NCBI RefSeq assembly: GCF_030378165.1
Contig: NZ_CP119766.1
Location: 2,728,001 to 2,792,000, forward strand
Reading direction: 5' to 3'
From: Flavobacterium panacagri
Lineage (GTDB): Bacteria; Bacteroidota; Bacteroidia; Flavobacteriales; Flavobacteriaceae
DNA: 64,000 nucleotides
The translations under genes were made by a program, and so were the position numbers. Below are positions 48,995-61,800 of the stretch, one piece after another. The notes below the pieces were generated by a model. The model searched no databases. It was given only the letters and a program-made list of their open reading frames with translations, and had not been told where the DNA came from. The first letter of the stretch is position 1; the number at the start of each line of letters is the position of its first letter.

Positions 48995-49621
48995 TTATAT
49001 TTCGTAAAAATTATCTTTTATATAGAAAACGGTATCTATAAATTGAAGAATGCCATTTTCGGTCAATACATTTTCGTCGTGAAGATCTTCAAGAATAATC
49101 CCTAAATCAGGATTATAGTAGTCGTTATTTTTTGTATTAAAAAATCCGTTTACAAGCATAAACTTTTTTACAACTTCTAGATCTGTTGGCTCAGTTGCTT
49201 TAACAAAAGGTTGTTCAACAACTGCATATATGATGTCTTCATTTTTGAAAAAGCCTAATAAATTGTATGCTGTGTCTGGGAAAAAGAAGTTATTTAACAA
49301 TAAATTATTGAAGTAATCTATCCAAGAATGATAATAAATAGAGTCATTAAGTTTGATTACATGCTTTCCATCTTTTAAATAGACTTTTTGTTCTGCTCCT
49401 TCAGAAATATAATTATCAAGATTGATATCTAAAATCCAAAGACTGTTTAATTCTATAAACTTTTCTAAGGTCTCTTTTTCTTGTTTTTTGAAATGCTTGA
49501 ATTCTTTAGCCATTGTACTTGCGCTTTGGCTTCTTCTAAGGTAACTGGCTGCTGCTTGGATAGTTGTTCCATGCTTAACTTTGCTCTTTCCTGAAATGAT
49601 AAGTTGTAATTCATGTTTCAT
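48995..49621 (-). CDS. Orphan kinase-fold protein resembling the polyvalent-protein kinase domain
   Basis: A 208-residue protein. The C-terminal two thirds read as a compact protein-kinase-like fold: a glycine-loop-like SEGAEQKVY (73-81), Lys90 in HVIKLND (ATP-binding Lys position), the hinge-like AVVEQPFVKA (133-142), the catalytic-loop-like EDLHDENVL (Asp179, His181, Asp182, Asn184) and a metal-binding-like FIDT (Asp196). This order is that of the serine/threonine/tyrosine kinase domain found in polyvalent proteins of phages and plasmids, which also occurs alone in Bacteroidota. The N-terminal 60 residues are basic and helical. The frame extends to 49708, but that would overlap the permease gene; the ATG at 49621 gives a clean start. 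Substrate unknown. Confidence 0.65.
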   Translation of the reverse strand: MKHELQLIISGKSKVKHGTTIQAAASYLRRSQSASTMAKEFKHFKKQEKETLEKFIELNSLWILDINLDNYISEGAEQKVYLKDGKHVIKLNDSIYYHSWIDYFNNLLLNNFFFPDTAYNLLGFFKNEDIIYAVVEQPFVKATEPTDLEVVKKFMLVNGFFNTKNNDYYNPDLGIILEDLHDENVLTENGILQFIDTVFYIKDNFYEI

Positions 49622-49632
49622 ATTGTTAAATA

Positions 49633-49666
49633 CAAAAATAGTGCATTTTATCAAAAAATAAAACAA
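49633..49666 (-). promoter_or_regulatory. Promoter of the kinase-like gene
   Basis: On the minus strand, TTG (49666-49664) and TATTTTTG (49640-49633) are 23 bases apart, the -7 box 11 bases before the ATG at 49621. A second -7-like TACTTTTG is at 49671-49664. The true start site could use either. Confidence 0.45.
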
Positions 49667-49680
49667 AAGTAAGTTTTGTA

Positions 49681-50997
49681 TTACTTTTTGTTTTTGTCCA
49701 AAACCCAAAACAAAGGATAAGAAACAATCGTAATCGCAACAATAATAATAAAACTTTTAGGATCGCTGTAAATGAAACCTGCCAGTAATGCGATAGAAAA
49801 TATGATCGCTAATATCGTTGTCCACGGATACCAGAATGATCGGTAAGGTCTTGGTAAATCTGGTTCAGTTGTTCTTAGTCTTAAAAGGGAATAATAGGCG
49901 AGTCCCCAAACAATTATAGAGATAAAAGCGGCGAAAGAAAACAACACTTCAAAAGAACCAATACAGATTAAAAACAAACTAAAAAGAGATGAAACCAAAA
50001 GCGCTACAATTGGTGTTCCGCCTTTATTGACTTGTGTTCCCTCTTTGATGAAAAATCCGTCTCGGCTCAATCCGTAGAGAATTCTTGGCGGAATCATCAT
50101 AAACGCGTTCAGAATACTTATTAAAGAGAAAATAGAAATTATGGTAACGATTTTAGCACCATTTTCTCCAAAAAGTATTTTAGCAACATCGGCTGCAGCC
50201 AAATTTGATTTTGCCAAAGTTTCGATTGGCAATACATGAAAAAATGCAGCATTTACTAGAATATAAATTACGACAACGAGTAAAACTCCGCTATATAAAG
50301 ATTTCGGAATGTTTTTGCTTGGATTATCATTTTCTTCAGCAAAAAAGCAAACGGCATTCCAGCCGTTATAAGTTCCTATAATAAGCTGTAATGACTTAAA
50401 AAAGCCAAAAATAATTCCGATTTGAAAGAAGGAACTATTGGTTTTGATTTTTGGAACTTCAACTCCTGAATACATAAAACATGCAATTACCAAAGCCACA
50501 AAACAAATCACTTTTAAGAAACTTGTGATTTGCTGAATCACACTTCCATTTTTGACACCGCTTAAGTGCAACAAAACAAATGCGACTAGTAATGAGATTG
50601 AAATTACGATGGAATAATTGGCAAGTGATGGAAATAGAATTATAGTATATTCACTAATTACAATACAGTAAAAAGCAGGAGGGATGGCATTGACAATATA
50701 ATCAAACCAGCCAGATAAAAATCCAGCATATTCGCCCATAGCCCTTTTGATATAATTATAAGAACCACCAGCTTTTGGTAACATTGTTGCCAACTCAGAA
50801 TACGAATTAGCTCCCAATAAAACATATAAACCTCCAAAAAGCCAAGAAGCAAGAATTAGCCAGTAATTATCTAATAGTCCTGCGATAGAACCCGGCGTAC
50901 GCAGAATCCCGACACCAATTGTGCCACCAATTAATACAGCAATGTTAAAACTTAAACCCAGTGTTTTTTTTAATTGGTTTTCTTTGGAATGGGACAT
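49681..50997 (-). CDS. APC family amino acid permease
   Basis: A 438-residue inner-membrane transporter with about twelve helices. The APC signature is clear in the first helix (VLIGGTIGVGILRTPGSIAG, with the GxGI unwound region), then KAGGSYNYIKRAMGEYAGFLSGW in helix 3 and YNGWNAVCFFAEE. Related proteins are amino acid/polyamine antiporters or LAT-type exchangers; the substrate cannot be set. A -7-like TACTTTTG lies at 51038-51031 on the minus strand, 33 bases before the start, with a TTG 25 bases further up. No terminator is visible between its stop and the kinase-like gene, so some read-through is possible. Confidence 0.9.
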   Translation of the reverse strand: MSHSKENQLKKTLGLSFNIAVLIGGTIGVGILRTPGSIAGLLDNYWLILASWLFGGLYVLLGANSYSELATMLPKAGGSYNYIKRAMGEYAGFLSGWFDYIVNAIPPAFYCIVISEYTIILFPSLANYSIVISISLLVAFVLLHLSGVKNGSVIQQITSFLKVICFVALVIACFMYSGVEVPKIKTNSSFFQIGIIFGFFKSLQLIIGTYNGWNAVCFFAEENDNPSKNIPKSLYSGVLLVVVIYILVNAAFFHVLPIETLAKSNLAAADVAKILFGENGAKIVTIISIFSLISILNAFMMIPPRILYGLSRDGFFIKEGTQVNKGGTPIVALLVSSLFSLFLICIGSFEVLFSFAAFISIIVWGLAYYSLLRLRTTEPDLPRPYRSFWYPWTTILAIIFSIALLAGFIYSDPKSFIIIVAITIVSYPLFWVLDKNKK

Positions 50998-51141: not shown

Positions 51142-53370
51142 TTAGAACTTATAACGCAAACTTGTCATAACCTGACGAGGCGCTATTGGGTTCACACTGT
51201 AATTTTCGTGAACAGTATAGTTTAATTCGTTTGTGATGTTTGATAATTTACATAAAATAGAGATTTTTCTCCAAGTATATCCTGCCGAAGCATCGATTGT
51301 AGTGTATCCTTTCAATGGAATTTCTCTGTGGTAGATTCCGTCAGGATATTTGGTAAGATCTGTGCTGTATTGATCATTCCAGCCGCCCAAACGATCACCA
51401 ATATAATTTCCTATTGCTCCAACAGAAACACCTTTAAGAAAACCATCTGGTATGGTGTAATAGAAGCTTAAATTTGCTGTATTTGCTGGAGTTCTTACAA
51501 GACGATCACCCTCAATAAAACTTCCGTTTAAACCAGATGTTTTAGTATAACGCATATCATTATAGCTGTAACCAGCAACAATACTTAAACCTTCAACAGG
51601 TCTTGCAGTTACATCAATTTCGACACCTTTACTTTTGGTTTCACCGCTTAACACTTTTACATTTGTATCCGTATTTAAACTTCCGTCGGCTTTAAATTCA
51701 GCTGTTTGTGCTAGATTGCTATTTGTAATTTGATAAACAGTAACGTTTGTGCTTAACATTCCTTCTAAGAAATCTGTTTTAATACCAGCTTCATATTGGT
51801 CAATAATAGATGGCTCAATTGGTTTTAAATCAGCTGTAGTTCCTGTGTTTGGAGTAAACGATGTAGAATAACTTGCAAATAACGAAACATCTTTTCTTGG
51901 CTGATAGATCAAACCAAATTTTGGAGAAAATGCATTGTCTAATTTCTTAGCACCCACTGTTGGTACTGCATTTTCAGGACTTACTGTTTGTTTTCCTGAA
52001 ACCAAAGTTTCTTTATAAGTCGTAACTTCAGCTTCCTGCCATGACCAGCGTATACCAGCTAATACTTTAAATTTTTCTGTAATTGAAATCAGATCTTGGA
52101 AATAAACACCAAAACGATTGGTTTCTGTTTTTGCAATTTGAGTTGCCCTAGCATTAGGAATATCATTTCTCTGTGTTGATGGGTCAAAATTGAAAAGATT
52201 GATTGTATCATAATTCGCAGGAGTAAAAGCAAAAGTGTAAGCCGTTGCAAAAGAGTTTTCCCAGTCGGCACCTGTAAAAATTTGATGTTTGACAGATCCT
52301 GTATTAAAATTCCCCTGAAGACTTAATTGATCTCCTAATATTTGTTCTAAGTTATCATTTTGAACTAATGGTCTTGTCCAATCACCGCTTGCACTTACTG
52401 AAGATAGTTGCGCTGTAGATTTTGATGCTCTATCATAGCTTTGGAAAGAAGAGTTAAAGTTTAATTTCCAGTTTTTATTGAAATCATGATTTAATAATAC
52501 AGAAGCACTTGACGATTTAGTTGTACCATTAGACCAAAGAGATCCATAAAATGTATTACGAGGTAAATCCAGAATTTTTGTGCCAATAATTCCTGTTCCA
52601 AAATCTGGAGTCCAATCTGCACTTAAATAATCTCCTTGAAGAGTAATTTGTGTTTTAGGATTGATTACGAAAAGTAAGGAAGGGTTTATATACAAACGCT
52701 CGTTTTTTACAACATCTCTAAAACTTTCCGAATTTTCATAAGAACCATTAATTCTAAAAGCAATAGATTTAGTAAGACCGCCATAAAAGTCAAAAGCTGG
52801 TTTATAATAAGAAAAGCTCCCCATTTGCATTGATACTTCGCCACCAGTTTTAAATTGAGGAGTTTTAGTAACAAGGTTAAGGATTCCCCCTGGAGCTACA
52901 TTTCCAAATAATAGGGCAGAACCTCCTTTAAGAAATTCTACTTTATCTAAACCGGATACATCTGGAATTGATCCTGCATTATAGCGGAATCCATTTTTAA
53001 ACATATTATTGGCAGACATATCATAACCTCTTGAGAAAAAAGATTCCTGAGCGCCACCTCGAGCAGAACCCACATAAACACCATTAGCATTTTTAAGAAC
53101 TTCACTTAATCGGATAGCTTGTTGCTGCTCGATAACTTCAGAACCAATAACTTGTATTGACTGTGGATTGTCCATTGGTTTTAATCCAGAACGAACTGCC
53201 GTTACAGGTTTAGGTTCTTTGGTTTTGGTAACCACGACCTCATTCAGAATTTCTCCTTTTTTATTTTTTACAGTATCGGTTACTGAAGAAGTAGTTTCAT
53301 TACTTGAATAATCTTGACCGTAAGAGACAAAGCTCAATAATCCTAGTGCTAATAGTAAATTATATTTCAT
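51142..53370 (-). CDS. TonB-dependent siderophore receptor
   Basis: A 742-residue outer-membrane receptor with a signal peptide (cleavage before QDYSS) and a short linker. The plug domain (about 60-165) has MDNPQSIQVIGSEVIEQQQA and FKNGFRYNAGSIPDVSGLDKVEFLKGG, and GNVAPGGILNLVTK closes the plug. A 22-strand barrel follows, ending in the aromatic SLRYKF. The 'N-PQSIQV' start and the plug layout fit the siderophore-receptor subfamily (FhuA/FoxA-like). There is no carboxypeptidase-regulatory N-terminal domain, unlike the receptor at 55781. It has its own promoter with an 11-base-spaced repeat operator and its own terminator, so it is monocistronic. The ligand is unknown; ferric siderophore is the likeliest. 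Confidence 0.92.
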   Translation of the reverse strand: MKYNLLLALGLLSFVSYGQDYSSNETTSSVTDTVKNKKGEILNEVVVTKTKEPKPVTAVRSGLKPMDNPQSIQVIGSEVIEQQQAIRLSEVLKNANGVYVGSARGGAQESFFSRGYDMSANNMFKNGFRYNAGSIPDVSGLDKVEFLKGGSALLFGNVAPGGILNLVTKTPQFKTGGEVSMQMGSFSYYKPAFDFYGGLTKSIAFRINGSYENSESFRDVVKNERLYINPSLLFVINPKTQITLQGDYLSADWTPDFGTGIIGTKILDLPRNTFYGSLWSNGTTKSSSASVLLNHDFNKNWKLNFNSSFQSYDRASKSTAQLSSVSASGDWTRPLVQNDNLEQILGDQLSLQGNFNTGSVKHQIFTGADWENSFATAYTFAFTPANYDTINLFNFDPSTQRNDIPNARATQIAKTETNRFGVYFQDLISITEKFKVLAGIRWSWQEAEVTTYKETLVSGKQTVSPENAVPTVGAKKLDNAFSPKFGLIYQPRKDVSLFASYSTSFTPNTGTTADLKPIEPSIIDQYEAGIKTDFLEGMLSTNVTVYQITNSNLAQTAEFKADGSLNTDTNVKVLSGETKSKGVEIDVTARPVEGLSIVAGYSYNDMRYTKTSGLNGSFIEGDRLVRTPANTANLSFYYTIPDGFLKGVSVGAIGNYIGDRLGGWNDQYSTDLTKYPDGIYHREIPLKGYTTIDASAGYTWRKISILCKLSNITNELNYTVHENYSVNPIAPRQVMTSLRYKF

Positions 53371-53405
53371 GATATTTATTTAGATTCAATAAAAATTATT
53401 GACTG

Positions 53406-53413
53406 CAAATATA
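53406..53413 (-). promoter_or_regulatory. TAnnTTTG -7 box of the 51142 TonB receptor
   Basis: On the minus strand this reads TATATTTG, 36 bases before the ATG. There is no good TTG at the -33 position, which fits a promoter that needs an activator. Confidence 0.55.
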
Positions 53414-53457: not shown

Positions 53458-53506
53458 CTTAAACCTTGCTTAGTTCTTTCTTAAGATTTGCTTAATGTTT
53501 TTCTAA
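53458..53506. promoter_or_regulatory. Four CTTAA-type boxes at exact 11-base spacing upstream of the 51142 receptor
   Basis: On the plus strand, CTTAA 53458, CTTAG 53469, CTTAA 53480 and CTTAA 53491 are each 11 bases apart; a weak fifth (TCTAA, 53502) keeps the phase. Direct repeats spaced one helical turn apart are the hallmark of OmpR/PhoB-family sites; the PmrA box (YTTAAK-N5-YTTAAK) is nearly the same. The array lies 45 bases upstream of the -7 box. Confidence 0.75.
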
Positions 53507-53538
53507 TGATATTTTAATTTTGTATTAATTTTCAAAAA

Positions 53539-53562
53539 AAACCTTGCCGTTAAGCAAGGTTT
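53539..53562 (-). terminator. Intrinsic terminator of the DUF4198 gene
   Basis: AAACCTTGC (53539-53547) pairs with GCAAGGTTT (53554-53562); on the minus strand it is followed by a T-run. Confidence 0.85.
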
Positions 53563-53602
53563 ATTGAATTGAAATTAAATCTAAGAATGAAATTTTCTAA
53601 AA

Positions 53603-54328
53603 TTATTTTACTGCAATTTGGTAAGTAGCCATTTTCCAGATTTCATCGTATTTTTTACCATTATGATCTCCAGAAGCTTTATCAGTGTGGGCATATTCTA
53701 CCATGTAATTTCCTGACCAGATTGGAGTAAAAGAGAACTCTCCTTTATCGTTTGTCCATAGTTCTTTTTCCCATCCGTTTGGAGCAATTACTTTAATCTT
53801 TGCTTCTTTGGCTATAGCACCTTCATAAGAAGCTACTCCTGTAATTTTAGTATCTTTTTTAGCTGCATCTGCATTTTCTGAGAAAACGGCAATTTTGTTT
53901 GTGTTAGCTGTAATATTATTTCCTGCAGCTTTGTTTCCAACAACTACAGTTGCACTTGAGTTATAATCTAATTTCATTGTGCCATAAACATCTTTTACAG
54001 TATGCTGCATTACAATAGTGTAAACTCCATCTTCTGTTGGAGTAAAGAATGCTTGGTATTTATTGTCTAAAGCCTTAGAAGTAAGTTTAGTTTCTTTTTT
54101 TGAAGGAGAAATAACGACTAAAGTGAAATCTTTTAAATCTGAAAACCATTTATCGGCTTTTGTAATGTCATTATCAGAGAATTCTCCAAAGTAAATAGAA
54201 ATTTCCTGAGCTTTACCTTTTGTTCCTGTAGCTTTTGTTTCAATCCAAAGTGCATGAGCAAAGATTTGAGGTGTGGCAAAAAGCATTAAGAATAAAAAAG
54301 TTAATGTTTTTAGTGTATTTGATTTCAT
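53603..54328 (-). CDS. DUF4198 domain protein, exported, possible metal-binding partner
   Basis: A 241-residue protein with a signal peptide ending FA, so the mature protein begins His25-Ala-Leu-Trp (HALWIETK). DUF4198 proteins commonly begin with such an exposed His and are found beside metal or cobalamin transport genes. The N-terminal part is an Ig-like beta domain; the C-terminal part (about 160-241) is a second, carboxypeptidase-regulatory-like domain (GEFSFTPIWSGNYMVEYAH) with several His. It lies between two TonB receptors and a PepSY protein. Inference: a periplasmic protein that binds or delivers metal. A -7-like TATGTTTG lies at 54372-54365 on the minus strand. Confidence 0.85.
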   Translation of the reverse strand: MKSNTLKTLTFLFLMLFATPQIFAHALWIETKATGTKGKAQEISIYFGEFSDNDITKADKWFSDLKDFTLVVISPSKKETKLTSKALDNKYQAFFTPTEDGVYTIVMQHTVKDVYGTMKLDYNSSATVVVGNKAAGNNITANTNKIAVFSENADAAKKDTKITGVASYEGAIAKEAKIKVIAPNGWEKELWTNDKGEFSFTPIWSGNYMVEYAHTDKASGDHNGKKYDEIWKMATYQIAVK

Positions 54329-54364
54329 AAGATCAAGTTTAAATTAGTACAATGATATTTTTTA

Positions 54365-54372
54365 CAAACATA
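54365..54372 (-). promoter_or_regulatory. TAnnTTTG -7 box of the DUF4198 gene
   Basis: TATGTTTG on the minus strand, 36 bases before the start codon; no TTG within the usual range. Confidence 0.45.
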
Positions 54373-54409
54373 AGTGTTATTTAGAATAATTAAAAATAAA
54401 AGACAAGAA

Positions 54410-54451
54410 AAAACCTCAAAATCATTTAGTACTAATGAATTTTGAGGTTTT
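54410..54451 (-). terminator. Intrinsic terminator of the PepSY gene
   Basis: AAAACCTCAAAAT (54410-54422) pairs perfectly with ATTTTGAGGTTTT (54439-54451), and the loop itself contains the near-palindrome CATTTAGTACTAATG. Confidence 0.88.
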
Positions 54452-54551
54452 TGTTGAAAATAAAAAATGGACTTAAAGTTTATTTTATGACCCTATAGAT
54501 TTGAAACTAAAAACAGCAATTATAACGTTTTTATTAATAATTGCTTATTTC

Positions 54552-55703
54552 TTAATTATTAACAATAGATTTCTTTTTCTTGTTATTTCTTCCCCACCAA
54601 ATTAGAAAGCCTGTTATAGGTAAACTAGCACAAATTAAGCTGGCAAAAAAGGCAAGTACTTTTCCTGGAAAACCTAATATGCTGCCAACATGCAGATCGT
54701 AATTTAGGAATCTGAATTTCTCACCGTTGCTTTTGTCTTTATACTTTATTGTTCGAAGAGGTTTCGCAGTATATTGATCATAATCTGTAGCGGTATCATC
54801 AAAGCGGCTTTTGTATCTGATAAAGGTGTTGTAAGTCGCAAGTGAATCAGTTTCTTTTGGAAGAAAGAAATAATAGCTTTTGGCCTCAGGATGAGTTTCT
54901 TTTACAGATGCATAAATTTTGTCAAGCGGTCTATTTTTGTTGTATTGAGTAGTATCAGAAACTACTTTTTCTCTTTTGAATGTTTTTCCTCCATTAAATA
55001 ACCATTGCAAACCTTTATCATAAGATTGAAATGCCCAAACCAATCCTGTAAGTGCAATCAATAACGCAAAAAACATAGAATAAAACCCAAGAATATTATG
55101 TAAATCGTAGTTTTTTCGTTTCCATTTTGTACTGTTTTTCCATTGAAACCAAAAACGCTGTTTAACAGCCTGTTTATTTTTTGGCCACCAAAGAATAAGC
55201 CCGGTAATTAAAGAAATGATAAAGATAATGGTAGCTGTTCCTGTAATGGGATCTCCAATTTTGCTGTTTAGGCATAATGTCTGATGCAGCATTCGAACAA
55301 AAACAAAAAACTCGAAATTAACATTTTCCTGTTTTTTAACCGCTCCACTATAAGGATCTACATAGAGATAAGTGCTTTGATATTGGTTCCAATACCAAAA
55401 GGCATCTGGATTTAATTCTTCATAAAACCAGACAATTATGGTGCGGTCATCTTCATTCAGGATTCGGCATCCTGAAATAGATTCTTTTGGGTTTTTGTTG
55501 GCTTTTTTTGCAATTTCTATGATTTGGCTCAGAGGAAGTTTTTTTTCTTTTACCTGATCTACGTGATAGTAATCATGAACAATAGGACGCAGTTCCTCTT
55601 CAAAAGAATACAAACATCCCGTAATACCCAATATAACTACAATTAAGCCAGATGCTAATCCCAGCCATAAGTGAATTTTAAGAATGAGTTTTTTAAAAGT
55701 CAT
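54552..55703 (-). CDS. PepSY-associated TM protein (PiuB-like, iron-uptake linked)
   Basis: A 383-residue inner-membrane protein of the PepSY-associated transmembrane family. It has a first helix preceded by KIHLWLGLASGLIVV with the conserved His, two central helices (IIFIISLITGLILWWPK and FYSMFFALLIALTGLVWAF), PepSY-like periplasmic segments, and a final helix with LHVGSILGFPGKVLA ending in ITGFLIWWG and a basic tail. Such proteins sit next to TonB siderophore receptors, and some are thought to reduce ferric siderophore at the membrane, with the His in the helices binding haem. Here it follows the receptor at 55781 by 77 bases, with a hairpin between. Confidence 0.9.
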   Translation of the reverse strand: MTFKKLILKIHLWLGLASGLIVVILGITGCLYSFEEELRPIVHDYYHVDQVKEKKLPLSQIIEIAKKANKNPKESISGCRILNEDDRTIIVWFYEELNPDAFWYWNQYQSTYLYVDPYSGAVKKQENVNFEFFVFVRMLHQTLCLNSKIGDPITGTATIIFIISLITGLILWWPKNKQAVKQRFWFQWKNSTKWKRKNYDLHNILGFYSMFFALLIALTGLVWAFQSYDKGLQWLFNGGKTFKREKVVSDTTQYNKNRPLDKIYASVKETHPEAKSYYFFLPKETDSLATYNTFIRYKSRFDDTATDYDQYTAKPLRTIKYKDKSNGEKFRFLNYDLHVGSILGFPGKVLAFFASLICASLPITGFLIWWGRNNKKKKSIVNN

Positions 55704-55733
55704 AAAAGTAATTCTGATTGTTATAATTAAAAG

Positions 55734-55758
55734 CGCCTCAATTTTATAAATTGAGGCG
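55734..55758 (-). terminator. Hairpin between the 55781 receptor and the PepSY gene
   Basis: CGCCTCAATTT (55734-55744) pairs perfectly with AAATTGAGGCG (55748-55758) around a three-base loop. It can end the receptor transcript, or let part of it through to the PepSY gene, which has no clear promoter of its own. Confidence 0.85.
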
Positions 55759-55780
55759 TCAGTTTAATTGTTTTTAGGTC

Positions 55781-58099
55781 TTAAAATTTGATTGTCAGGT
55801 TTGCTAACAAGTTGGCTGGTGCCATTGATGAACCCCAGAAATCCCAGTATTTTTCGTTTGTAATATTGTTGAATTTTAAACCTAATCTCCATGTTGGTTT
55901 TTCATAATATACAGTTGCATTGTAAACGGTATAAGAAGGCATATAAATTAAATTATTTGCAGTAAAGTAATTCTTGTCGATATAGTTTGCACCTGCACCA
56001 ATACCTAATCCTTTCAATTTATTTTGGAAAGTATAAGTAGTCCAGAAGTTAACTACATTCTCAGGAGAACTTGTCGCTTTTTTTCCTTCAATAGTTGGAT
56101 CAGATGCTCGTACAATTCGGTTGTCATTATAAGCATATCCACTTACAATACTAAGTCCGTTAAATGGAGTTGCCATTAATTCAAAATCAACACCTTTGCT
56201 TACTTGTTTACCATCTTGGATAGTATATCCAGCATCAACTCTTGTAGCATTATCAATGGTAATGTTGTAGTAACTAATAGAGCCGCTTAATTTCTTATTA
56301 GACGTTTCGGCTTTTAAACCTCCTTCATATTGTACCGCATAAATTGGATCTAAAACTAATAAGGTTTGATCAGGCTGTGTCACAGGTGCCATATTCTGGA
56401 AACCATTCATGTAATTTGCGAATACAGAAACTTGACTTTTTACAATTTCATATACTAATCCAAATTTTGGAGAAAGTGCTGTTTGGCTGTAACCCTCAAC
56501 AGTTCCCACTTTTGCTCTTTCAAAATTATCCAAACGCAAACTTAACATTGCGGAGAATTTGTCTGTAAAATTGATAACATCACAAGAGTAAGCACTAATT
56601 GTTTTTTGGTCAGCAACCGCAGAAGTTGTCAGGTTAAGACCAGCATCAACTGCTTTTCTTCTAATAGGAGCAAAAGGAGTTGTAATATCAATATTATCAA
56701 GTGTAAAAGTTGATCCGCCTGAGAAGTTTGAAGTATAAAGTCTGTAGTTTACACCAGCAAGGAATTTATGTTTGATGCTTCCAGTTGAAAACTGTCCGTT
56801 AATGTTTTCCTGAATATTAGTATAGTTATTAAAGATAGGTCCCCAAAGTCCAACTCTTCTGGCTACTTGTGTTGGTGAACTCCATACTGCATAACTTTGA
56901 TAACTGCGTTCTACATCTTCCCCTACAAAAGAGAATACAGTTGTAGATTTCCAGTTTTCAGATATTTGATATTCAGCTTGCCCAAAGAATTTTGTAGCCG
57001 TTGATTTGGCATCGTTATCATCATGGAACATAGACTTTTTGTAATCGATTTGAAGTTGGCTAGGGTTTGTTATCCCAGAATTTGCGTCATAAGTATTATA
57101 TGTACGTCTGGTGTTGTTTACATTGTAAAGTTCTGCATCGAAGTTAAAAGTAAGTTTTTCCGATGCTTTATAAGTTAAGCTAGGAGCGAAAAGAAGCGTA
57201 TTGTTGAAACCATAATCAAGGAAGCTTTTTTCTCTGTGAACTCCCATATTGATTCTGAATAAAACTGTTTTTTCCTGATTTAAAGGAGTGTTAACATCTA
57301 CAGTTAATCGGTTTAAATTGTAGCTTCCAGCCGTGTAAGATACTTCGGCAGCAGTAGTTTCAAAAGGTTTTTTTGTAACAAGATTCACTACACCTCCAAA
57401 AGAAGACACTGAAGAACCAAATAAAGTTCCAGAAGGGCCTTTCATGATTTCAATACGCTCTACGTTACCAAGATCAACAGAAGAACGTCCAGAAACTGTT
57501 TCCATTCCGTTACGAGCATTAACTCCAATAGAAAATCCTCTGAAAATCATTCCAACTCCACCAGATGGGTAACTAATTGACACAACCCCTGGTGCGTTCA
57601 TAACAGCGCCTTTTATATCTACGGCAACCTGCTGTAATAAAAGTTCTTTTTGGATTACACTGTAGACCTGCGGGTTTTCAATGTTGGTTAAAGGCATTCT
57701 GGCAACATAATCTGTTTTTTTAGATAATATGCTTTTTTTGCCATTTACAACAACTTCTTTTAATTCTTTGTTAGAAACTTTTAGCTGTAAATTAATATTT
57801 GATGTCTCACTTTCTGCTACAATTACTTCACTTTCTGAAGTTTCGTAACCCGTTAAGGAAACTTGTAAAGTATAGGTGCTTGGTTTAACTCTGTTGAATT
57901 CGAAGTTTCCATTTTCGTCAGAAACAGTCCAATATTTTGAGTTTTTTAAGATCACATTAACTCCAGCAGCTAATTCGCCGTCTGAAGTGGTGATGGTTCC
58001 TTTAATTTTTCCATTTTGTTGGGCAGATACGATTAAGAACGAAAAGACAAAACTAATTGTCAATAGAAGACGTAATGTCTTCGGATTAAAATATTTCAT
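55781..58099 (-). CDS. TonB-dependent receptor with carboxypeptidase-regulatory-like N-terminal domain
   Basis: A 772-residue outer-membrane receptor. A signal peptide (cleavage before QQNGKI) is followed by a carboxypeptidase-regulatory-like domain (about 30-115: GKIKGTITTSDGELAAGVNV to GYETSESEVIV), a plug domain (about 135-245, with NAPGVVSISYPSGGVGMIFRG and ERIEIMKGPSGTLFGS), and a barrel ending LTIKF. The plug and barrel resemble siderophore receptors (FhuE/FecA-like), and the neighbouring PepSY gene agrees with ferric-siderophore uptake. It has a textbook promoter and a four-box operator upstream. The ligand is unknown. Confidence 0.92.
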   Translation of the reverse strand: MKYFNPKTLRLLLTISFVFSFLIVSAQQNGKIKGTITTSDGELAAGVNVILKNSKYWTVSDENGNFEFNRVKPSTYTLQVSLTGYETSESEVIVAESETSNINLQLKVSNKELKEVVVNGKKSILSKKTDYVARMPLTNIENPQVYSVIQKELLLQQVAVDIKGAVMNAPGVVSISYPSGGVGMIFRGFSIGVNARNGMETVSGRSSVDLGNVERIEIMKGPSGTLFGSSVSSFGGVVNLVTKKPFETTAAEVSYTAGSYNLNRLTVDVNTPLNQEKTVLFRINMGVHREKSFLDYGFNNTLLFAPSLTYKASEKLTFNFDAELYNVNNTRRTYNTYDANSGITNPSQLQIDYKKSMFHDDNDAKSTATKFFGQAEYQISENWKSTTVFSFVGEDVERSYQSYAVWSSPTQVARRVGLWGPIFNNYTNIQENINGQFSTGSIKHKFLAGVNYRLYTSNFSGGSTFTLDNIDITTPFAPIRRKAVDAGLNLTTSAVADQKTISAYSCDVINFTDKFSAMLSLRLDNFERAKVGTVEGYSQTALSPKFGLVYEIVKSQVSVFANYMNGFQNMAPVTQPDQTLLVLDPIYAVQYEGGLKAETSNKKLSGSISYYNITIDNATRVDAGYTIQDGKQVSKGVDFELMATPFNGLSIVSGYAYNDNRIVRASDPTIEGKKATSSPENVVNFWTTYTFQNKLKGLGIGAGANYIDKNYFTANNLIYMPSYTVYNATVYYEKPTWRLGLKFNNITNEKYWDFWGSSMAPANLLANLTIKF

Positions 58100-58154
58100 T
58101 GGTTTGTAAAATTGGTTTATAAAGATATTTTATTTAGAATAAATAAAAATAACA

Positions 58155-58184
58155 CAAATGTATAGATAATATTTTCTTTAACAA
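58155..58184 (-). promoter_or_regulatory. Promoter of the 55781 TonB receptor
   Basis: On the minus strand, TTG (58184-58182), exactly 19 bases, then TACATTTG (58162-58155) followed by T: the best fit to the Bacteroidota consensus in the window. The ATG is 55 bases downstream. Confidence 0.75.
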
Positions 58185-58193
58185 ATATTATTT

Positions 58194-58231
58194 TTAAGGA
58201 TTCACTAAGCATTTGTTAAGATTATTTTAAG
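58194..58231. promoter_or_regulatory. Four TTAAG-type boxes at exact 11-base spacing upstream of the 55781 receptor
   Basis: On the plus strand, TTAAG 58194, CTAAG 58205, TTAAG 58216 and TTAAG 58227 are each 11 bases apart. The minus strand reads CTTAA, CTTAA, CTTAG, CTTAA, the same boxes as at 53458-53495 but in the opposite orientation relative to the gene. The array begins 10 bases upstream of the -33 TTG. Confidence 0.75.
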
Positions 58232-58325: not shown

Positions 58326-58333
58326 TAATTTTG
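58326..58333 (+). promoter_or_regulatory. TAnnTTTG -7 box of the MFS gene
   Basis: TAATTTTG followed by C, 19 bases before the ATG at 58353. There is no TTG at the proper distance. Confidence 0.45.
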
Positions 58334-58352: not shown

Positions 58353-59513
58353 ATGATTTTATCTTTCTTTAAAAAAATTCAAAATACACCTAGAGGATAT
58401 CGTATTGCTAATACAGTCTTTTTCTTTCTTTCTGGTTTTGGATATTCTTCATGGGTATCGAGAATTCCACATATTCAAGCCCAATTGCATTTATCAGAAG
58501 CTCAATTTGGAGCTGTTTTATTTGCCTTTCCAATCGGATTAATGCTGACAATGCCATTTACAGGAAAGCTTTTAAATAAATATAGCAGTCGTTATATTAT
58601 GCTGTTGGGAGCAATTATGTTTAATATTGTATTGTCTCTGCCTGGATTAGTCGCTTTTGTCTGGCAGTTGGTAATTGTGCTTTTAATTTTTGGTGCTTCT
58701 CGTAATATTTTCAATTTATCGATTAATGCACAATCGCTTGAAGTACAGAAATTATATCCAAAATCGATTATTACTCGTTTTCATGCGGTTTGGAGTATTG
58801 CCGTTTTTTCAGGAGCTGGTTTGGGGTATGTTATGGTAACGCAGAAAATTGCACCCTCTCATCACTTATTAGGAGTGAGTGTTTTTATGCTGGCACTGAC
58901 AGCTTGTTTTTATCCAATGAGTATTCATAATGAACCAGTACCAGTCAAAAAGAAATTCTTTTCGATGCCGGAAAAAAACTTGGTTAAGTTTGCCTTGATT
59001 TGTTTTGTTTCTATGGCCTGCGAAAATACGATGTACGATTGGAGTGGTATTTATTTTGAAAATATTTTAAAAGCTTCTCCAAAATTAACCAGTGCTGCTT
59101 TTGTATTTTTTGCTTCGGCAGTTACCTTGGGACGTATATTTGGAGATTATGGTGTAATGAAGTTTGGAACTAAAAAAATCCTTCTTTATAGCGGAATCTT
59201 AATTACCGTCGGTTTCGGAATTTGTTTTATTCTGCCTTACGCTTATCCTACTATTTTCGGATATGTACTAATCGGATTTGGAGTTTCTTGTGTAGTTCCT
59301 TTAGTGTTTAGTATTGCCGGAAGATCATCAAAATTAAGCAGTGGTTCTGCCTTGACTTCTATTTCTACAATTGGTTACCTAGGTTTTTTATTAGTACCGC
59401 CAATGGTTGGGTTTATTTCTGAATATTTAAGTATGAAATGGGCCTTTTTAATTATGGCAGTCTTAGGTATACTTATGATTTTTATGGTGAATAAGATTGG
59501 GGAGAATGAGTGA
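58353..59513 (+). CDS. Major facilitator superfamily transporter
   Basis: A 386-residue membrane protein with twelve hydrophobic helices. The MFS inter-helix motif GKLLNKYSSRYIM follows helix 2, and a weaker repeat (GDYGVMKFGTKKIL) follows helix 8. SWVSRIPHIQAQLHLSEAQFG in the first loop matches a group of sugar or drug MFS proteins (YbjJ-like). The substrate is not set by the sequence. It is divergent from the TonB receptor at 55781 and shares the 253-base intergenic region holding the 11-base repeats; co-regulation is possible but the repeats are about 95 bases from its -7 box. Confidence 0.88.
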   Translation: MILSFFKKIQNTPRGYRIANTVFFFLSGFGYSSWVSRIPHIQAQLHLSEAQFGAVLFAFPIGLMLTMPFTGKLLNKYSSRYIMLLGAIMFNIVLSLPGLVAFVWQLVIVLLIFGASRNIFNLSINAQSLEVQKLYPKSIITRFHAVWSIAVFSGAGLGYVMVTQKIAPSHHLLGVSVFMLALTACFYPMSIHNEPVPVKKKFFSMPEKNLVKFALICFVSMACENTMYDWSGIYFENILKASPKLTSAAFVFFASAVTLGRIFGDYGVMKFGTKKILLYSGILITVGFGICFILPYAYPTIFGYVLIGFGVSCVVPLVFSIAGRSSKLSSGSALTSISTIGYLGFLLVPPMVGFISEYLSMKWAFLIMAVLGILMIFMVNKIGENE

Positions 59514-59709: not shown

Positions 59710-60213
59710 TCATCGCTTTTTCATGACAAATCGTTCTGTATTGGGTTTGCCTTTTTTCAAACCAGAGATTTCTGCGATTAATGAATCTTTTGCGACAAGA
59801 TTGTAAATGATTTTGTTTGGATAATCGTGTTTTGGATTTTCAAAAACGATTTGATTTTCGCTTGCTGAGGTCATTTCGAAACTTACAGGTAATTCTTGAT
59901 TCTGCCCAGGAACGGTTACGATGTAAGAGAGTTTTCCGTTGGCTTCTTCTAATCGAACATGTTCAGCAAAAACAATATCATTTTGACCAACAACAAAATA
60001 GGATTCACCACGATAAACGGAATCATTTTCTTTTTTCCATCGTTCGGTAAGTTCTCCTTCGGCCGATTTATTTCCCCATTCCCCAATAAACCACTCTGCT
60101 TTGGCAAGATTTGGATATGTTTTTACTGGAGCTTCGGTTTTGATTTCTTTTTTACAAGAAGATAAAACTACAATAGTAAAGATTGTGGAAAATAGAATAC
60201 CTTTTGTTTTCAT
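59710..60213 (-). CDS. DUF6265-type lipoprotein (paralogue 1)
   Basis: A 167-residue predicted lipoprotein with leader and lipobox VLSSC (Cys20). The mature domain is a small beta-barrel-like fold with EWFIGEWGNKSAEGELTERW near the start, then IVFENPKHDYPNKI and AEISGLKKGKPNTERFVM, the pattern of DUF6265. Its paralogue at 61031 keeps the same three motifs (WLIGNWENTS, LVFENAKHDYPQKI, AEISG..GKPSSEKFVM). No catalytic residues are recognised; lipocalin-like small-molecule binding is a guess. It is bounded at its 3' end by repeat copy A and upstream by copy B. Confidence 0.8.
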   Translation of the reverse strand: MKTKGILFSTIFTIVVLSSCKKEIKTEAPVKTYPNLAKAEWFIGEWGNKSAEGELTERWKKENDSVYRGESYFVVGQNDIVFAEHVRLEEANGKLSYIVTVPGQNQELPVSFEMTSASENQIVFENPKHDYPNKIIYNLVAKDSLIAEISGLKKGKPNTERFVMKKR

Positions 60214-61030: not shown

Positions 61031-61507
61031 TTACTTTTTCGTCATCACAAACTTCTCCGAACTCGGTTTCCCGTTCAAATTCCCTGAAATCTCAGCTGTC
61101 AAAGTATTATTAGCGCCTTTTGTATAAGTGATTTTTTGAGGATAATCGTGTTTAGCATTTTCAAAAACTAATTGTTTATCCGATTCAGAAGTCGCAGGAA
61201 AGGAAACAGGTTTATCGTTATTCTGTCCTTTTACGGTTGCTTTGTAAGTTAATGTTTCGCCAAGCTGTGCTAGGATAATAGTTTCAAAATGAAGTGTATC
61301 TTTTCCTTTTATAAAATAAGAAGAAGCACTAAAAGTACTGTCATTTAGTTTTTGCCAGTTTTCACTTAGAACACCTTCTGGAGAAGTATTTTCCCAGTTG
61401 CCAATAAGCCAATCTGCGATTTTGATTTTATCTTTTTCTACAGATTCTTTTTTCTGGCAGGAAACGAAAGCAATGATAAGTGCAATAAGAGTAATTTTCT
61501 GAAACAT
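61031..61507 (-). CDS. DUF6265-type lipoprotein (paralogue 2)
   Basis: A 158-residue predicted lipoprotein. The frame is open to 61564, but the added 19 residues have no signal character; the ATG at 61507 gives a standard leader and lipobox AFVSC. The mature domain matches the gene at 59710 (WLIGNWENTSPEGVL, LVFENAKHDYPQKI, GKPSSEKFVMTKK), so the two are paralogues separated by one unrelated lipoprotein gene. Function unknown; probably located at the outer membrane or facing the periplasm. Confidence 0.8.
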   Translation of the reverse strand: MFQKITLIALIIAFVSCQKKESVEKDKIKIADWLIGNWENTSPEGVLSENWQKLNDSTFSASSYFIKGKDTLHFETIILAQLGETLTYKATVKGQNNDKPVSFPATSESDKQLVFENAKHDYPQKITYTKGANNTLTAEISGNLNGKPSSEKFVMTKK

Positions 61508-61551
61508 ATTTTGTAAGGTTTTGATTGTACTAATGTATGAAAAAAATGGTT

Positions 61552-61800
61552 GCCACGAATTCACGAATTTATTTTTGAAAATTGGTGCGATGTATTGTTT
61601 CTAAACGCACGAAATTAAATTTGAAACATTTTTTGCCACTCCAGATCGCTATCGAGATAAGCTGATTAAAACAATTTTTAGCAAAGATTTATATAATTAA
61701 AATTGAGATTTGATTTTCCAAACTTGTGAAAATAAAAACAATGATATTTCGTGTAATTAAAGACAAAAATAGATTAAAGAATAATTCGTGAATTCGTGGC
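61552..61800. repeat. Perfect 18-bp inverted repeat of the GCCACGAATTCAC family bracketing 213 bases
   Basis: GCCACGAATTCACGAATT (61552-61569) and AATTCGTGAATTCGTGGC (61783-61800) are exact inverse copies, 213 bases apart. The enclosed DNA is A/T-rich and carries no gene that I can see. Other copies of the family (4861-4918, 16425-16474) are short hairpins, so this one may have been opened by an insertion or may be two half copies. Confidence 0.75.

Follow-up and report, generated by a model that had tools for sequence, protein, structure and literature searches.

Phased CTTAR box arrays upstream of TonB-dependent receptor genes in Flavobacterium panacagri as candidate operators of a CusR/PmrA-like two-component system

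Architecture of the locus

A 64,000-nucleotide stretch of the Flavobacterium panacagri genome (contig NZ_CP119766.1, positions 2,728,001 to 2,792,000; hereafter the window) carries two genes for TonB-dependent siderophore-type receptors, each preceded by an array of four CTTAR boxes. With good probability, the arrays are operators, layered over Fur-like sites, that belong to an uncharacterised and autoregulated two-component system of CusR/PmrA-like type. Arrays, receptor genes and predicted promoters lie as follows.

53458..53495 (+): array 1, with boxes CTTAA at 53458, CTTAG at 53469, CTTAA at 53480 and CTTAA at 53491, in exact 11-base steps
58194..58231 (−): array 2, with CTTAR boxes at 58194, 58205, 58216 and 58227, in exact 11-base steps
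51142..53370 (−): TonB-dependent siderophore-type receptor behind array 1 (PF00593, PF07715; TIGR01783 300.3 bits, cut-off 223.5)
55781..58099 (−): TonB-dependent siderophore-type receptor behind array 2 (TIGR01783 248.3 bits, cut-off 223.5)
53406..53413 (−): −7 element TATATTTG of the 51142 promoter, without TTG in the −33 range, identical in 8 aligned loci
58155..58162 (−): −7 element TACATTTG of the 55781 promoter, with TTTG 19 bases upstream (TTTG-N19-TACATTTG)

A sequence-only reading of the window had reported four boxes per array, and both their positions and their steps are correct to the base. Array 2 reads TTAAG/CTAAG/TTAAG/TTAAG on the plus strand, and CTTAA, CTTAG, CTTAA, CTTAA on the minus strand. 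As that reading had it, the arrays take opposite orientations relative to their genes: CTTAA of array 1 stands on the strand opposite to its receptor gene, and CTTAA of array 2 on the gene's own strand. Its further remark, that it had noticed such arrays nowhere else in the window, also holds. A 3-box pattern allowing up to 2 mismatches matches only the two array spots, and a 4-box weight matrix, trained on L007-L009 and L073-L115 minus L096 and L107, a set that included both window arrays, scores 42.2 for array 1, 29.6 for array 2 and at most 7.2 elsewhere.

Both arrays share two properties of OmpR/PhoB-family operators. Their boxes are direct repeats spaced by about one helical turn (11 bases), and they lie upstream of predicted promoters, the TAnnTTTG elements following 44 bases (array 1) and 31 bases (array 2) downstream, where the earlier reading had placed them. 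The TTTG of the 55781 promoter follows 8 bases after the end of the last box of array 2. The reported lack of a −33 TTG in the 51142 promoter was borne out in this genome; three aligned relatives (G075, G052 and G400) have a TTG in that range, so the weak −33 region is not universal among 51142-type promoters. Array 2 also lies upstream of a divergent MFS gene at 58353 (+), which has its own TAATTTTG at 58326-58333. Array 1 contains, in CTTAAGATTTGCTTAAT, the PmrA/BasR half-site arrangement CTTAAG-N5-NTTAAT. Boxes 3 and 4 of array 1 form the 16-letter sequence CTTAAGATTTGCTTAA. The same 16 letters stand unchanged in L256 and L257, flanked there by genes for a related regulator and kinase and by a CusA-type pump gene, which ties the receptor arrays to this type of regulator.

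Genomic distribution and the candidate regulator

A search of the 5.98-Mb genome gave 6 exact 3-box matches, spread over 4 places, and none for the reversed control pattern. Three of these places, two in the window and another at a distance of 1.3 Mb, precede genes for TonB siderophore-type receptors. The fourth is flanked by an OmpR/PhoB-type regulator-kinase operon (L008 5265-7330) on one side and by a divergent LTA-synthase-like gene on the other; the product of the latter has a sulfatase fold and resembles phosphoglycerol transferase and LTA synthase. A scan for at least three CTTAR boxes was the check that the sequence-only reading had proposed, and its result favours the operator idea: the random genome-wide occurrence named there as a refutation is not seen. 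Moreover, the fourth array, outside the window, precedes a gene of the very family that had been suggested, which supports a putative OmpR/PhoB-type operator.

L007 5173-5199: third receptor array, before the siderophore-type receptor gene at L007 2563-5043, with a PepSY_TM gene further on
Genome 4045264-4045923: OmpR/PhoB-family response regulator gene, directly before its histidine kinase gene, 1.26 Mb from the window

The regulator has receiver and winged-helix domains (PF00072 and PF00486, both above cut-off) and is predicted to bind DNA. The array at its own gene consists of six boxes, ATTAA, ATTAA, CTTTA, CTTAG, CTTAA and CTTAA. This array can be made out in each of 16 aligned loci, which the array itself had served to find, with the first boxes degenerate in several; in the same loci the regulator keeps TATCTTTG and the array stands about 10 bases from the −7 element of the LTA-synthase-like gene. 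The OmpR-type DNA-binding family is represented by 11 matches in this genome; at the 10 besides this regulator, the array test was passed nowhere within about 1.5 kb on either side.

The association between regulator and array was computed directly across a genus sample of 81 genomes, 62 of which have the regulator (E up to 1e-60). Exact 3-box arrays occur in 29 of these 62 genomes and in 2 of the 19 without the regulator (Fisher p = 0.0034); in one of the 29, G011, the exact match is a simple repeat only. When loci were chosen on the regulator alone, the best 30 among 65 genus matches included 25 with an array, or 5 of 10 when only genomes outside the matrix training are counted. A search of the class, which scored 12 candidates per genome, found arrays in 9 of 11 new loci (two, L304 and L305, are marginal). 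Among 80 named contigs fetched, the first 29 (L148-L176) were scanned and 23 carry an array; the other 51 are at most 43% identical. Even where no exact 3-box match lies near the regulator, 10 of 15 loci carry a weight-matrix array above all 40 shuffles; these loci (L281-L295) represent 14 of the 33 regulator-bearing genomes without an exact match, together with G011, whose simple repeat lies elsewhere. Some loci are duplicated in these counts, for instance L158 = L285, L163 = L293 and L134 = L281.

The regulator is patchily distributed, with 13 of 247 class-sample genomes matching at 1e-65, 4 of them in this genus. Arrays stand alongside regulators about 47-65% identical in other Bacteroidota, and they accompany the regulator in Dysgonomonas sp. 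BGC7, in Dyadobacter fermentans and in a metagenome-assembled genome (MAG) of Melioribacteraceae; a second Dysgonomonas (L170) failed the array test. In a tree of 45 rows, chosen and labelled by us, 24 of 25 array-bearing regulators (a duplicate row from this genome left out of the 25) fall into one clade of 34 with support 93/96, and the ten paralogues from this genome fall outside it. The exception is L262. A contig titled as a Klebsiella pneumoniae MAG (L162) carries an array and a Flavobacterium-type regulator 70% identical to this one; its title looks mislabelled, or the bin contaminated.

Arrays across the genus and the phylum

Period 11 stands out in the genus. The exact 3-box pattern at this period has 64 matches at 50 places in 31 of the 81 genomes, and the reversed control 21 matches in 17. 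At period 10 the same genomes gave 24 matches at 9 places, mostly simple repeats, and at period 12 they gave 8 matches at 8 places. The reversed pattern matched more often than the forward one at periods 10 and 12 and is thus a loose control. With overlaps of no more than 40 bases tolerated, none of the 46 places in other genomes falls deep within a gene, and 39 of them adjoin a few recurring gene families. Fifteen lie between the regulator and the LTA-synthase-like gene. Seven precede the LTA-synthase-like gene or a pair of genes for 144- and 328-residue proteins, which are thioredoxin-like and ApbE in L084; L096 is counted here by size only. Four stand between the kinase gene and a gene for a 1444-residue pump, of CusA/CzcA type in L089 (TIGR00914 1186.5 bits, cut-off 701.45). 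The receptors account for the rest of the 39: 5 places precede orthologues of 51142, 1 an orthologue of 55781 and 7 orthologues of the third receptor. The remaining 7 have other neighbours (L072, L075, L077, L107, L109, L116 and L117), L107 and L116 being simple repeats. Wherever another genome of the sample has an exact array at any of the three receptors (8 genomes), its copy of this regulator's gene is accompanied by one too.

Conservation, which the sequence-only reading had made a touchstone of the operator idea, is seen for array 1 and is weaker for array 2. Array 1 stands at the 51142-type promoter in this genome and in seven others, hence in all 8 aligned loci; the array itself led to the seven, which makes the figure a biased measure of conservation, and the same is true of the other alignments apart from the loci of this genome. 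Array 2 is present, boxes intact, upstream of a 97%-identical receptor orthologue in one close relative, G042.

In the wider phylum sample the exact 4-box pattern has 30 matches in 24 of 395 genomes. Ten of the 25 places outside this genome share their fetched stretch with a homologue of the regulator (37-70% identical); in one, L269, a DUF4405 gene lies between array and regulator. Two precede 51142 orthologues and one an efflux adaptor-pump pair. Six belong to one family, f18, and lie near assorted genes, including those for DUF3570 and a cytochrome-assembly protein and, beside a multihaem cytochrome, a ferric-reductase-like protein that scores below its cut-off. The others comprise four arrays of a CTTAACA type, one simple repeat and one unplaced match.

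Two less regular arrays were found in the genome of F. panacagri.

L029 4645-4682 (genome 4643644-4643681): degenerate 4-box array with 2 mismatches, upstream of an ankyrin-DUF2271-PepSY/flavodoxin gene row
L031 8657-8694 (genome 3844656-3844693): irregular CTTAA repeats spaced 10, 12 and 11, at a second regulator-kinase pair before an OEP-adaptor-CusA-type operon

A loosened 4-box pattern (up to 3 mismatches) has 19 matches in this genome against 32 for its reversed control, which leaves the 3 places with no more than 1 mismatch as the informative ones. The L029 array is a weak candidate for a fifth target. Of 30 homologue loci, 6, all from close relatives, have an upstream array (score at least 17.5), and others have lost it; TAnnTTTG and a Fur-like TTCTAAAT are present in all 17 aligned loci. 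The L029 array is accompanied by a Fur-like site with 2 mismatches, and an ApbE match follows the gene row at genome 4648447. The L031 repeats are perhaps a related operator of a paralogue.

Fur-like sites and neighbouring genes

The surroundings of the two receptor genes include Fur-like sites, scored here against the published Riemerella box (PMC5609570). In gel shifts reported there, Fur bound fragments with this consensus.

58132..58150 (−): Fur-box-like site that follows the −7 element of 55781 and precedes its start codon, with 3 mismatches to the Riemerella consensus
53378..53396 (no strand assigned): weak Fur-box-like site between the −7 element and the start codon of 51142, 5 mismatches
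54379..54397 (−): Fur-box-like site directly upstream of the DUF4198 gene, 2 mismatches
53603..54328 (−): gene for a DUF4198 protein, between the arrays (PF10670 40.7 bits, cut-off 34)
54552..55703 (−): gene for a PepSY_TM membrane protein (PF03929 223.4 bits), immediately downstream of 55781 and on its strand

The sites at 54379 and 58132 are the best two ATTTAGAATTATTCTAAAT-like matches of the window, in that order. Five mismatches are common in the window, so the site at 53378 rests on its conservation: AATCTAAATAA within it is kept in 8 aligned loci. Fur may act at the sites of the receptors, and their position alongside the receptors fits the earlier proposal that control would not lie with Fur alone. 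The PepSY_TM gene is perhaps co-transcribed with 55781; PepSY-like proteins have been implicated in iron reduction outside the cytosol (PMC8238504).

Elsewhere in the window, a small open reading frame at 48995-49708 (−) adjoins an amino-acid permease gene and matches Kinase-PolyVal (PF18762, 214.7 bits), a kinase domain that owes its name to polyvalent proteins. Two neighbouring DUF6265 proteins are encoded at 59710-60213 and 61031-61564 (−), a probable local duplication.

Weighing the alternatives

Several observations weigh against the arrays being operators of this one regulator with a single mode of action. The reversed control in the phylum sample, itself loose, has 58 matches in 9 genomes, mostly clustered. 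No exact 3-box match is found in 33 of the 62 regulator-bearing genomes, and such genomes tend to be larger, a possible confounder of the association. Regulator loci failing even the weaker array test number 5 of 30 in the genus set, 2 of 11 in the class search, 5 of 15 among loci lacking an exact match nearby and 6 of 29 among the named contigs. The two nearest CusA-type pump genes of this genome have no array, so the metal link comes from relatives. Orientation differs between promoters, as does the distance from array to −7 element (44 bases at 51142, 31 at 55781), and one fixed geometry of activation would not cover all cases. Other points of this kind concern array 2 and the L031 repeats, and are given below with the explanations that they favour. 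As a separate observation on pump genes, a CusA-type gene of this genome (L311, genome 4491693-4494890) has four internal stops and is probably a pseudogene.

It could be that array 1 and the regulator's array are functional and that array 2, having arisen recently or by chance, serves no purpose. This is unlikely, although array 2 was found only in G042 besides this genome, is absent from the 400 bases upstream of six homologues 63-67% identical, and has spacers that differ from the CTTAAGATTTG core. Few genomes of the phylum sample have any exact 4-box match, and array 2 lies 5 kb from array 1, at the promoter of a TonB receptor, with its boxes intact in the relative.

A second explanation, which we consider distinctly improbable, is that another CusR-like paralogue binds the arrays or that several regulators share them, so that the regulator at 4045264 is not, or not the only, cognate one. 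The L031 repeats, at a second regulator-kinase pair before a pump operon, raise the prospect that related regulators might cross-bind, and L262 has a 4-box array behind the kinase gene of a 37%-identical regulator that groups with the paralogues of this genome. Against this stand the failure of all ten paralogue loci in the array test, the array found at this regulator's gene in each of the 8 other genomes with an exact receptor array, and the rarity of exact arrays in genomes without this regulator.

Pho-type repeats are also spaced 11 bases apart, and the arrays might be Pho boxes, bound by PhoB, with the receptors answering to phosphate starvation. PhoB is reported to act on iron genes in Synechocystis (PMC11126600), and the four CTTAACA-type 4-box arrays (L277-L280) lie by TonB-receptor-like genes or, in L280, by a marginal match to a phosphate porin (Porin_O_P 21.9 bits, cut-off 20.9). 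This explanation is nevertheless very improbable and was rejected: the regulator scores below the cut-offs of the PhoB models (TIGR02154 205.1 of 296.2; NF053854 177.8 of 270), and the recurring neighbours of the arrays are metal and flavin-redox genes. The CTTAACA-type arrays themselves, of period 11 and standing beside TonB-receptor-like genes, are perhaps Bacteroidota Pho boxes bound by PhoB.

That the arrays are low-complexity tandem repeats arisen by chance and without regulatory role is scarcely credible and was likewise rejected, since period 11 exceeds periods 10 and 12 and, although a few matches elsewhere are such repeats (L107, L116 and L276), the window arrays have boxes that are copies of one another and spacers that are not, and the boxes of array 1 and of the regulator's array are kept in alignments across species.

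Proposed mechanism

The favoured reading, operators of the two-component system encoded from genome position 4045264, leads to the following model. Its elements of binding, head-to-tail geometry, activation, Fur action and signal are what we infer from the arrays, whose phasing and genomic distribution were, like the association with the regulator, computed directly. The kinase would activate the OmpR/PhoB-type regulator (4045264-4045923), molecules of which would fill successive 11-base CTTAR boxes head to tail along one face of the helix. The sites so filled would be the regulator's own six-box promoter and the receptor promoters, where transcription would most likely be activated. At the LTA-synthase-like gene, the short distance from array to −7 element means that the regulator would occupy the usual −33 contact site; together with the array 44 bases before the −33-less 51142 promoter, this suggests that the regulator acts as an activator.

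At the receptors, this control would be layered over iron control exerted via the Fur-like sites near the start codons. The resemblance of these sites to the Riemerella consensus suggests that the receptors probably answer both to low iron and to the regulator's signal. That signal probably lies in the metal or redox state of the cell envelope, given that arrays in relatives lie by a CusA/CzcA-type pump, the LTA-synthase-like enzyme and the thioredoxin/ApbE operon, and that PepSY genes also keep company with arrays; in one checked case (L284) the thioredoxin/ApbE operon also holds the flavinylation substrate DUF3570. The probable targets of the system are its own gene and the iron-siderophore receptors, joined in relatives by metal-efflux and surface-redox genes.

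A broader proposal can be put forward only tentatively. A so far unrecognised two-component system with 4-6-box CTTAAG arrays might govern electron transfer outside the cytosolic membrane in Bacteroidota and in at least one Ignavibacteriota record, coupling ApbE/DUF3570/PepSY flavinylation-linked redox proteins, ferric-siderophore receptors, metal efflux and the LTA-synthase-like enzyme under one metal/redox signal.

Comparison with known systems

Among the closest known operators is that of PmrA (BasR) of enteric bacteria, an OmpR/PhoB-family regulator. The available text of PMC3973317 describes the PmrA box as half-sites CTTAAG/NTTAAT or CTTAAT/CCTAAG five bases apart, hence 11-base direct repeats of CTTAA-type half-sites like those found here, and reports head-to-tail binding on two half-sites. 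PmrA boxes, however, have two half-sites, and the arrays of the window and of the regulator's gene have four to six. Neither regulator nor kinase passes the PmrA/PmrB models (NF007928 155.9 of 330 bits; NF008025 156.8 of 314 bits). We know of no TonB receptor among the targets of PmrA.

Regulator and kinase resemble CusR/CzcR systems in that TIGR01387 (regulator) and TIGR01386 (kinase) are their best-scoring NCBIfam models, and in that the gene after the kinase encodes a CusA/CzcA-family pump in many relatives. Both nevertheless fall below the cut-offs (TIGR01387 215.2 of 279.2 bits; TIGR01386 194.1 of 292.55 bits), and CusR sites are inverted repeats, in contrast to the direct-repeat array here. 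With the cut-offs of the PmrA, CusR/CzcR and PhoB models all failed, the regulator would work like these proteins without being filed as one of them.

Two other regulators share parts of the predicted regulon. Riemerella PhoP is likewise a Flavobacteriales OmpR-type regulator, autoregulated and with TonB receptors among its targets by DNA affinity purification sequencing (DAP-seq), as given in the accessible part of PMC9603813; its most conserved letters there are TTTAACA, likened to ArcA, the number of peaks is 583, and 11-base CTTAR arrays are not apparent in that part. Shewanella SO2426 is a DNA-binding response regulator reported to regulate siderophore expression positively, although an orphan that acts on siderophore synthesis in another phylum (PMC3127752). 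Among the array-linked genes, those for ApbE, thioredoxin-like PF13899, DUF3570, PepSY_TM, DUF4198 and DUF4405 belong to families named in the flavinylation gene clusters of PMC8238504 and PMC11334425 and linked there to flavin-based electron transfer and iron reduction. The available portions of these papers give gene clusters and chemistry, and they name Fur and no two-component regulator. A binding motif was not found in the portions seen of PMC5399024 and PMC8115612, nor did the open-access literature, as far as its texts were available, yield a description of this array or of a two-component regulator for this gene set.

OmpR-type operators and regulons in Bacteroidota are, to our knowledge, poorly mapped. 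The arrays belong to a known kind, the OmpR/PhoB-type direct-repeat operator, and are unusual in the number of their boxes and in their set of targets. They supply a precise, scannable operator, a likely regulator gene and a short list of targets, which makes the control besides Fur of ferric-siderophore uptake and flavin-based surface redox in Flavobacterium a directly testable question.

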